DNA of 64,000 nucleotides from the NCBI RefSeq assembly GCF_016834455.1, contig NZ_CP069213.1, forward strand, positions 2,976,501-3,040,500, written 5' to 3'. The position numbers were made by a program, and so were the translations under genes. The DNA is from Shewanella litorisediminis. GTDB taxonomy: Bacteria; Pseudomonadota; Gammaproteobacteria; Enterobacterales; Shewanellaceae. Within the stretch, counting starts at the first letter, position 1. The number at the start of each line of letters is the position of its first letter. Under the pieces are notes generated by a model, which was not told the origin of the DNA, made no database searches, and worked only from the letters and a program-made list of their open reading frames with translations. Below are positions 9,212 to 11,596 of the stretch, one piece after another.

Positions 9212-9399
9212 GGAACTGGGTTCCTTGATCTTGTTTTAGTATTGGGTACGAGAGGGTGAATGTAAAAATGCCTTAACATTCTCGATTCGGCGCAGATTAT
9301 AGGGGCTTTCCCCTGGTCAGGCCAGAACAAATGCCCAAGGCGGGCGCTGGCGCAGAATGCAATCGATTGCGATGGTTAGAAAGGAAGCTTTCGATGGAT

Positions 9400-9426
9400 A
9401 AAAAAAAGCCTGCTCAATGAGCAGGC
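9400..9426 (-). terminator. Intrinsic terminator of the small transcript
   Basis: On the minus strand GCCTGCTC-ATT-GAGCAGGC followed by seven Ts. There is no conventional gene between it and the promoter at 9894-9921, so it must end the small transcript described here. Confidence 0.9.
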
Positions 9427-9487
9427 AAAGACATGTTTCAAGCGTCCCGGATGGGAAAAGAATTACCGCGCTAGCGGAAACACCTTG

Positions 9488-9515
9488 GTATGTTGAATGA
9501 TGCGAATCAACATAC
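9488..9515 (-). ncRNA. Stable hairpin in the 3' part of the small transcript
   Basis: A perfect 9-bp stem, GTATGTTGA / TCAACATAC, around a 10-base loop. It overlaps a 16-codon ATG-initiated frame (9463-9513) that I take to be chance. A second, weaker stem (TACCC/GGGTA) lies just upstream in the transcript. Pairing of this quality suggests a structured RNA rather than plain trailer. Confidence 0.55.
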
Positions 9516-9621
9516 TACTTGAGTCCAAAAGTACCCAAAGGGGTAACACAAAGGTTGATGGATGATGGAAACTACTTCAAGAAGGGGTAGTTAAGCCCTT
9601 GAATCGCCATAGAGGGGACGA

Positions 9622-9720
9622 TTAGCCCTTAAAAGTCATACTGTACAGACCACCGCGCAACAGAGTCGCGTTAAACCAGGTGTTCTGCCAAACGAAAGCG
9701 TTTTTACCAGTGTAAGACAT
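9622..9720 (-). CDS. Candidate 32-residue small protein, unknown function
   Basis: An ATG at 9720, nine bases after GGAG, opens 32 codons (MSYTGKNAFVWQNTW... to ...SMTFKG) and stops with TAA. Another ATG at 9726 is possible but only three bases from the GGAG. The peptide is rich in aromatic residues and Asn/Thr, has a few Lys/Arg, and has neither a clear signal peptide nor a membrane segment. A promoter upstream and terminator downstream enclose it. I recognise no family. Support is the ribosome site and the dedicated transcription unit; conservation was not checked. Confidence 0.55.
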   Translation of the reverse strand: MSYTGKNAFVWQNTWFNATLLRGGLYSMTFKG

Positions 9721-9770
9721 AGTCATAAGCTCCAAATTAACAAGTCAGTAAGTACTCTAGCAAAGCTTGG

Positions 9771-9849
9771 CTCGGTTCCCTGGAGCTAGAGATTCTCATT
9801 TCCGTGGAGACAACTTGTCACTCGGTTCCCTGGAGAGGTATCCATCCTG
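9771..9849 (-). repeat. Leader with three 15-bp repeats and GGA motifs (possible CsrA sites)
   Basis: On the minus strand the leader reads CTCCAGGGAACCGAG (9821-9835), CTCCACGGAAATGAG (9795-9809) and CTCCAGGGAACCGAG (9771-9785), spaced 26 and 24 bp. Each has CUC...GAG ends able to pair around a GGA-containing loop. CAGGATG (9843-9849), the classic CsrB-type repeat, precedes them. With the GGAG ribosome site this makes five GGA motifs. CsrA binding is inference; the repeats are directly visible. Confidence 0.6.
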
Positions 9850-9862
9850 GATTGACTAGAGG

Positions 9863-9884
9863 TGACAGGCATCTTGCCCTGTCA
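9863..9884 (-). ncRNA. 5' hairpin of the small transcript
   Basis: A 7-bp stem, TGACAGG / CCTGTCA, with an 8-base loop. It lies at the predicted 5' end, a few bases after the expected start site, where such hairpins often stabilise an RNA. Confidence 0.55.
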
Positions 9885-9893
9885 ACGAGAGCC

Positions 9894-9921
9894 AGTATAC
9901 CCAACTGTAGTTTTATTACAA
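9894..9921 (-). promoter_or_regulatory. Sigma-70-type promoter of the small transcript
   Basis: Minus strand TTGTAA, 16 bp, TATACT. The -10 matches the consensus at five of six positions. The start site is predicted near 9887, giving a transcript of about 490 nt that ends at the terminator at 9400. Confidence 0.6.
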
Positions 9922-10007
9922 GCATTATTTGAATATTTTTTGTTTTAGGTGATTTTCTGTAATTTTATTACACATTAAAACTGGGGTTATTTGTGATGGA
10001 TGTCGGA

Positions 10008-10044
10008 TAAAAATACGGAACACCTAAGGCATTCCGCTTTTTTT
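10008..10044 (-). terminator. Terminator after pepA
   Basis: CGGAA...TTCCG imperfect stem-loop flanked by an A run and a T run, so it can act in both directions. It lies shortly after the pepA stop codon and upstream of the small-transcript promoter. Confidence 0.65.
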
Positions 10045-10066
10045 CAACAAGTTATAAATTGTGTAA

Positions 10067-11596
10067 TTATTTTGTAATGTAATGACACATTACCGCCAAA
10101 GGCGATGCGGTTGGTTTACCATACAAAGGGTCCCCTTCTGTGGCACTGCCGGCAATGTCCAGATGCACATAGGGCAAGGGTTTATCACTGCCAAGACCGT
10201 GGGCTTCCAGGCCCGAGGCGCGGATAAGAAACGCCGCCGGGAACTGATGACCACGGGCCGTAACAGACGAAGGCGCATTATTGGAAGACAAAATATCCGA
10301 CGCACCGGACACGTCCTTAATCTTGTCAAAGTCTTCCCGGCGCAGTCTGGAAACCTCGAAGGGCTCGCCAACGCTGTCACCGAGTGCAGCAATCACACCG
10401 GTCACGCCGCCGCTATGGGCCACCGAGTTGGCCACTGCCGCCGGATAACCTCCGTAGGCGCGAACCACGTGGCCAGTCAGGGTTGCCACCGAAAATATCT
10501 CCGGGTTGACGGCGCCCACGGCCTTTTGACGCAGGTGACTTAAGATGTCAGCCAGCACCAGTCGGCCTTCGGCATCGGTATTGCCAATGCGCACCCGCAC
10601 ACCGGCATGGCTTGGGATGATTTCATCGGTGACAAAAGCCTCAGAGCCAATGCTGTTACGCACCAGTCCGAGTTCAGCAATTACACGGATCCCTTTGGGT
10701 TTCAATAAAGACAGGGTTTTCATCAGGCCTGCCACGGCGGCTGCGCCGCCCTTGTCACGGCTCATGCCTGCCATGGCGCCGCCAATTTTCAAATCGGCGC
10801 CGCCTGTGTCGTACACCACGCCTTTACCGGCAAACAGGAAGGTACGCTCAATCTCGCCCTCGCCCAGGTATTCGAGTTTCACGACTCTTGGCTGGTGACG
10901 ACCCACCGCAAAAGAGGCGCGGCCAACGGCGCTTAGCAGCGGATAGTCGCGCTCCAGTTCATCGCGGCCTTCAATCACCCGGGTGTGGATGTTGCTGCCC
11001 TCAAAAGCTTTAACGCAGTAATCAGCAAAAGCGGGCGCCGACATACGTTCAGGCTCGGTGCCGCACAGGTCCCGGGCAAGATTGCGGCCGGTTTCAAGGG
11101 CACAGGCAAGTGTGGCGAGCGACTCATCGGCGCCATAAAGGCCGATGGCTTCGATACTGCAAGGGGCAGCGCCCTGCTCCCGGGCCTCAAGGCTGGTCCA
11201 TAATTCCTGTCCACAGCCCAGAGCGGCAGCCAGCATGGCTTCAGCCTTATCGTCACGGCCAAACACCGCCAGCAGTGGCCGGGAAGCACCTGCGTCTCTT
11301 GCCATGGCAATGGCGCTGCGGGCAGCTTGGGTCACTGAGCGCACGTCTTCGTAATCGCCATAGCTACTGCCGATGGGGGCGTAAATCAAGCGGCCACCGG
11401 CGAGGCCCGGTGCCAGCAGTAAGGTGGTGGTCTTTCCCACCCGGTTGTCGATACTGGCGGCGTGACCTGCCAACAGACGTACTTCATCGAAGGAAACTGC
11501 ATCCAGTGAGGGGCTCAGCACCAAGAGCGCATCAAAGCCCTCGCCGGCGAAGATGCCATTTTCATCCTGTTCAACAACAAATTGTGCCTGAAACAT
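10067..11596 (-). CDS. M17 leucyl aminopeptidase family protein
   Basis: Cytosolic dizinc aminopeptidase of 509 residues. All family metal and catalytic residues are visible: the Lys and Asp in GKGVVYDTGG, the catalytic Lys in ADLK, the Asp in SRDKGGAA, and NTDAEGRLVLAD supplying Asp, Glu and the catalytic Arg. DKGGA replaces the more common DMGGA. I chose the ATG at 11596 (MFQAQFVV) with GGAC upstream; a longer frame reaching 11785 has no M17-like sequence and overlaps the promoter region shared with pepD. It is divergent from pepD, another peptidase. Confidence 0.9.
   Translation of the reverse strand: MFQAQFVVEQDENGIFAGEGFDALLVLSPSLDAVSFDEVRLLAGHAASIDNRVGKTTTLLLAPGLAGGRLIYAPIGSSYGDYEDVRSVTQAARSAIAMARDAGASRPLLAVFGRDDKAEAMLAAALGCGQELWTSLEAREQGAAPCSIEAIGLYGADESLATLACALETGRNLARDLCGTEPERMSAPAFADYCVKAFEGSNIHTRVIEGRDELERDYPLLSAVGRASFAVGRHQPRVVKLEYLGEGEIERTFLFAGKGVVYDTGGADLKIGGAMAGMSRDKGGAAAVAGLMKTLSLLKPKGIRVIAELGLVRNSIGSEAFVTDEIIPSHAGVRVRIGNTDAEGRLVLADILSHLRQKAVGAVNPEIFSVATLTGHVVRAYGGYPAAVANSVAHSGGVTGVIAALGDSVGEPFEVSRLRREDFDKIKDVSGASDILSSNNAPSSVTARGHQFPAAFLIRASGLEAHGLGSDKPLPYVHLDIAGSATEGDPLYGKPTASPLAVMCHYITK

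Follow-up and report, generated by a model that had tools for sequence, protein, structure and literature searches.

The 855-nt intergenic region at 9212-10066 of the Shewanella litorisediminis window (the 64,000-nt stretch of contig NZ_CP069213.1 that was analyzed) contains a small-protein gene, and its sequence and relatives make it probable that the transcript is an mRNA under the control of HexR and CsrA, encoding a new family of small proteins that take part in central carbon regulation. Shewanella, used as a model of extracellular electron transfer, has HexR and the Csr system as two of its main carbon regulators. If this reading is true, their network would gain an output so far missing from it: a near-universal gene that apparently receives both signals and whose product is new to Pfam and NCBIfam.

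A conserved transcription unit and its small protein

The features of the region are listed below, from the pepA-like gene towards the purine permease gene (coordinates are those of the window).

10015..10037, minus strand: hairpin resembling a terminator, located between the unit and the pepA-like gene (from sequence)
9958..9972, no strand assigned: box 2, upstream HexR-type operator TGTAATTTTATTACA, a perfect 12/12 palindrome
9906..9920, no strand assigned: box 1, HexR-type operator that overlaps the -35, minus-strand sequence TGTAATAAAACTACA (10 or more of the 12 consensus positions in 101/101 promoters)
9894..9921, minus strand: sigma-70-type promoter TTGTAA-16-TATACT (from sequence; conserved as TTGTAA...TATAAT)
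9863..9884, minus strand: 5' hairpin of the transcript (covariation)
9840..9852, minus strand: leader hairpin 1, AUCC-AGGAU-GGAU, with GGA in the loop (near-invariant in Shewanella)
9821..9835, minus strand: leader hairpin 2, CUC-CAGGGAACC-GAG (leader comparison)
9794..9810, minus strand: leader hairpin 3, UCUC-CACGGAAAU-GAGA (a module in part of the genus)
9770..9786, minus strand: leader hairpin 4, GCUC-CAGGGAACC-GAGC, repeat copy 2 (leader comparison)
9730..9733, minus strand: Shine-Dalgarno GGAG, doubling as a GGA motif (conserved)
9622..9720, minus strand: ORF of 32 codons plus stop, protein MSYTGKNAFVWQNTWFNATLLRGGLYSMTFKG (relatives in nearly all genus members; dN/dS 0.31)
9548..9571, minus strand: conserved 3' UTR stretch TTTCCATCATCCATCAACCTTTGT, candidate base-pairing segment (UCCAUCAACCUU conservation)
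9488..9515, minus strand: 9-bp 3' UTR hairpin GTATGTTGA/TCAACATAC (from sequence)
9400..9426, minus strand: intrinsic terminator, GCCTGCTCATTGAGCAGGC then eight T, stem 9426-9408 (from sequence; stem pairs covary)

Transcription is predicted to start near 9887, and the leader in the window sequence is ~167 nt long, with the repeat CTCCAGGGAACCGAG occurring twice (9835-9821 and 9785-9771). Judging by its sequence, the hairpin at 10015..10037 separates the pepA-like and small-protein transcripts. Folding of the single sequence was weak (MFE z -1.25 vs. shuffles), and the promoter and terminator counts were just modestly above those of shuffles. Since such single-sequence statistics alone are weak, the unit was judged real by cross-genome comparison, for which 102 copies were extracted, nearly all from Shewanella (tandem copies are included and some species are represented twice). 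The promoter, 5' hairpin, leader, ORF, 9-bp hairpin, and terminator of the original prediction were all found at their claimed positions and are conserved as one unit. The region had also been called a gene desert; it is simply an intergenic region. The HexR-type operators, the GGA-loop hairpins, the tandem copies, and the constant gene neighborhood described below go beyond the original prediction. The assertion that nothing in it belongs to either neighbor is true of the sequence, though the place beside the pepA-like and purine-permease genes is fixed.

Searches with the peptide (tblastn) found relatives in nearly all same-genus genomes and no convincing match outside the genus in the genomes sampled, while a scan of named species genomes returned 58 loci, all in Shewanella plus Parashewanella curva. 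A covariance model of the leader core matched 109 of 126 genomes of the family, in 3 of its 5 genera. The peptide profile matched 2 of the 87 genera sampled in the order, both within the family, and found no copy in the ~85 others; a promoter-plus-leader pattern matched 2 of 115 genera, this pattern being so strict that it misses the window copy itself. Conservation in related genomes, proposed earlier as a check, was thereby borne out by both tBLASTn and the leader model, with frame, promoter, and 5' hairpin kept under selection. Five same-genus genomes (G005, G458, G466, G470, and G484) had no leader match, which could reflect loss or strong divergence of the sequence. Genomes carry one copy or, often, two or three in tandem, ~650-770 nt apart. 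A pepA-like M17 peptidase gene on the same strand precedes the unit; on its downstream side, most loci whose flank is long enough have the purine permease and proBA. Other genes can intervene (e.g., a TonB-receptor-like gene in strain ANA-3). In g295, a sister genus of the same family (probably Ferrimonas, a guess from family membership), the unit is present and seven copies were read (L155-L161). All seven have the promoter box and most have the second upstream box, together with GGA hairpins, GGAG, and an ORF of 29-32 residues, and the neighbors are the same as in Shewanella where checked (L155 and L158). The register NTWF...G.LF.M/L is common to the peptides of g295 and Shewanella, and the similarity is weak.

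By the evidence of its sequence the ORF encodes a protein, since it is under purifying selection (median pairwise dN/dS ~0.31, an approximate value as synonymous sites are partly saturated) and its start, frame, and length are kept. Among 96 ORFs, a set limited to 28-34 codons, the start is ATG in 93 and GTG in 3, at the inner codon ~9 nt from GGAG; an upstream in-frame ATG (9726) is just 3 nt from GGAG. The inner ATG is the conserved start, and the 32-codon length proposed earlier was correct. Heterozygosity at codon positions 1, 2, and 3 was 0.23, 0.22, and 0.38, a third-position excess, and Leu, Arg, and Gly residues are preserved with up to 7 codons in use; for example, alignment Leu27 is kept in 94/96 ORFs and Arg28 in 91/96, with 6 and 7 codons, respectively, in those columns. 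The consensus is MSYTGxxxxYWQNTWFxTxVLRGGLYAMxFKG. A bias of synonymous over nonsynonymous change had been named in advance as a mark of a protein, and the dN/dS value favors one; along with the conserved start, frame, and length and the third-position excess, it upholds the reading of the transcript as a small-protein mRNA. The peptide, which had not been recognized from the sequence, has no family in Pfam or NCBIfam even at E 10. It thus represents an apparently undescribed family of 28-34-residue proteins, encoded by a stand-alone gene in Shewanellaceae. Where copies stand in tandem, two types of paralogue (YWQNTW and IYSQSFW) are often retained, and these recur in several species (copies L007, L044, L045, L046, L087, L088, and L095); their sequences suggest that the two are kept paralogues with different roles.

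An AlphaFold prediction for the peptide was uninformative (pLDDT 62, pTM 0.21), so that any protein target is a guess. We consider it highly improbable that the unit is a selfish or stress module encoding a type I-like toxin. While small size, a long structured leader, and tandem duplication would suit a toxin, the unit has a single fixed chromosomal place and a metabolic-type promoter, no antisense unit was noted, and a hydrophobic transmembrane segment is not obvious by eye.

HexR-type operators in the promoter

In Shewanella, HexR regulates carbon metabolism globally (PMC3223726, PMC5343134), and its published motif is TGTAATTAAATTACA (PMC11906056). The -35 of the small-protein promoter lies within the palindrome TGTAAT-N3-AYTACA; in each of the 101 promoters scored, box 1 agrees with this palindrome at 10-12 of its 12 positions. 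In the same 101 promoters, box 2 lies upstream of box 1 by 51-53 bp in 84, 62-63 bp in 7, and 74 bp in 6 (start-to-start spacing is 52 in the window), i.e., at five, six, or seven helical turns, and it scores at least 10 in 70 of the 101 vs. 1.6% of shuffled upstream regions. The genome has 4 exact matches to TGTARTNNNAYTACA, 2 of them in this promoter, and sites with one mismatch adjoin genes reading as gapB, ppsA, phosphoketolase, nqrA, and deoA (names from reading translations, not from a family search). One more HexR-like palindrome, TGTAATGTAATGACA with a single mismatch, is found at 10073-10087, in the 3' end of the pepA-like gene and ~100 bp upstream of box 2. The genome also encodes a single RpiR-family regulator between zwf and pykA-like genes, the expected place of hexR, so that two features of a HexR regulon member, an operator in the promoter and HexR encoded in the genome, are present.

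The operator match and the helical phasing of the two boxes were directly observed, and from them we infer HexR binding, its sign, and a response to KDPG. As judged by these sites, the promoter looks to be controlled by HexR, and the placement of box 1 across the -35 points to repression. A regulator other than HexR could also recognize the palindrome. Two other assignments, the UvrY box TGTAAG-N6-CTTACA and a TyrR-type box, were ruled out by their different spacing.

GGA hairpins of the leader and the 3' UTR

The 5' hairpin covaries, with 6 of its 7 pairs changed on both sides, which are the compensatory changes that the original prediction had put forward as support for an RNA structure. The tested structure as a whole scored 0.230 vs. 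0.143 when shuffled, and slid registers lose pairing. In a mutual-information scan of the full transcript, just the pairs of the terminator and the 5' hairpin exceeded phylogenetic noise. A further candidate, CAAGUUG/CAACUUG pairing upstream of the ribosome site, was rejected as it is broken in several species (e.g., L002 and L009).

Downstream of the 5' hairpin, a core of AUCC-AGGAW-GGAU followed by CUC-CARGGAnnn-GAG was near-invariant in 68 leaders. CARGGA occurs 1.25 times per leader vs. 0.12 in shuffles, and GGA lies in a possible hairpin loop 3.04 times per leader vs. 1.05 in shuffles. Leaders carry 3-7 GGA motifs, with three or four alone in some, and the loop of hairpin 2 is 9 nt, longer than the preferred six. 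In g295 the stem of hairpin 1 is UGUC/GACA or GGCU/AGCC in place of the AUCC/GGAU of Shewanella, and the AGGA loop is unchanged; this conservation of GGA in loops across stem replacement was directly observed. Hairpin 1 has been lost in two diverged Shewanella copies (L162 and L163), in which the promoter box, the ORF, and the remaining GGA hairpins persist. The middle domain of the leader varies freely among copies. Since stems swap while loops stay and the middle varies, recognition of the GGA loops by a protein is favored over a ligand pocket. It is quite improbable that the leader is a metabolite riboswitch or another cis element that masks GGAG independently of CsrA: the near-invariant core block and a leader CUCC complementary to GGAG would agree with such an element, but there is no single fixed fold, stems being swapped wholesale while the AGGA loops stay, and the free variation of the middle domain also speaks against it.

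Known CsrA targets combine small stems that hold GGA in their loops with a GGA at the ribosome site, as in the glgC-type architecture (PMC7652899). The leader has two features of a CsrA-regulated mRNA, i.e., loop GGAs enriched over chance and a conserved GGAG at the ribosome site, and the genome encodes csrA and a CsrB-like tandem pair. By its sequence the leader therefore looks to be a CsrA ligand, with both the binding and its sign drawn from these features. The leaders with few GGA motifs, the long loop of hairpin 2, and the two copies that lack hairpin 1 speak against it. The CsrB-like pair, which lies elsewhere in the genome (L053 and L054, G000:C1:1253994-1255044), scored 61.7 and 52.1 vs. 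the 71-bit Rfam cut-off and has 21 and 23 GGA motifs. Because the CsrB-like RNAs have such numbers, the leader resembles a regulated message more than a sponge. That CsrA titration is the main task of the RNA and the ORF secondary, which would give HexR a route into the Csr system, is accordingly an unlikely reading. The series of GGA loops, the tandem arrangement of the whole unit in several species, and a leader conservation that nearly equals that of the ORF are in its favor, but a leader has only 3-7 GGA motifs to set against those of the same-genome CsrB-like RNAs, the ORF is clearly selected as a protein, and the CsrB/CsrC covariance model (RF00018) did not match anywhere in the window. 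Searches against Rfam, at gathering as well as at permissive thresholds, gave chance-level matches only, mostly on the terminator.

The 3' UTR is roughly 150-260 nt in most copies, and its mean consensus (0.76) is close to that of the leader (0.77). UCCAUCAACCUU is found in 59% of 69 units, and a hairpin comparable to the 9-bp one occurs in most relatives; arm-shuffle support for the 9-bp hairpin was modest (0.675 vs. a mean of 0.595 and a maximum of 0.653). A regulatory role of the 3' UTR is possible from these sequences. The transcript could conceivably be a dual-function RNA, a tentative reading in which the ~200-nt 3' UTR also pairs with other mRNAs via the conserved AUCCAUCAACCUU, like the cytosine stretch of VcdRP. 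The feature of a dual-function RNA that was found is a selected small protein, with its start and length kept at a dN/dS of 0.31; in addition, the whole 3' UTR is about as conserved as the leader, short conserved words lie outside the hairpins, the terminator is strong, and some of the g295 copies retain a word resembling CATCAACC. Against this, the stretch could pair within the transcript or be an RNase or Hfq element. A dual function is compatible with the explanation by HexR and CsrA and does not exclude it.

Proposed function and comparison with known systems

In the HexR- and CsrA-controlled scheme, HexR dimers on the two phased operators, one of them over the -35, would repress the promoter. 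On sugars or amino sugars the Entner-Doudoroff intermediate KDPG would rise, HexR would release the DNA, and the RNA would be made. CsrA bound to the GGA loops of the leader would reach GGAG, so that translation would wait until CsrA is in short supply or titrated away. Like VcdP or SgrT, the small protein would then partner an enzyme or transporter of carbon metabolism and adjust it, and the gene probably helps tune carbon metabolism. A stronger form, which we regard as rather doubtful, is an AND gate in which HexR, as a KDPG sensor, and CsrA act on one RNA to release a new regulatory protein, and the RNA feeds back on CsrA or other mRNAs. If true, the transcript would have three functions (HexR output, CsrA ligand, and small-protein messenger) and would connect the Csr system of Shewanella with the Entner-Doudoroff pathway. 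Papers searched for HexR together with CsrA, for small proteins of Shewanella, and for candidate MR-1 locus tags of the region gave no description of the gene (most subscription papers were outside the search), and the papers searched contained no comparable small-protein regulator in Shewanella.

Several characterized systems share parts of this design. In SgrS/SgrT of enterobacteria, an RNA that responds to sugar comes with a small protein that adjusts sugar uptake, and the Shewanella transcript is proposed to be likewise a sugar-responsive RNA with a small protein. However, SgrS is controlled by SgrR, responds to phosphosugar stress, and has a well-known base-pairing part, and we know of no sequence relation between SgrT and the Shewanella peptide. 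Leaders of the glgC type that are repressed by CsrA similarly have loop GGAs upstream and a GGA over the Shine-Dalgarno sequence (PMC7652899), whereas the Shewanella message codes for ~32 residues only, is under HexR-type operators, and is predicted to bind CsrA. Repeated GGA hairpins and tandem copies are also features of Shewanella CsrB1/CsrB2 (PMC3171408), although the CsrB-like RNAs of this genome have 21-23 GGA motifs and the leader fewer; CsrB1/CsrB2 are controlled by UvrY via TGTAAG-N6-CTTACA boxes (PMC3171408).

By analogy, the nearest working counterpart is VcdRP of Vibrio cholerae, whose >300-nt transcript combines a conserved ORF of 29 aa with a regulatory part at its 3' side; the small protein VcdP acts on the central enzyme citrate synthase, and vcdRP transcription is set by the carbon regulator CRP (PMC8672173). 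Both transcripts have a small conserved ORF with a 3' part, and both would be under a carbon regulator. They differ in that HexR-type operators are found here and CRP control there, and in that a GGA-loop leader is present here and none has been reported for VcdRP. No relative of the Shewanella protein was found in the other genera of the order sampled. As a small-protein regulator the Shewanella gene product would be comparable to VcdP and SgrT, and this role is directly testable.
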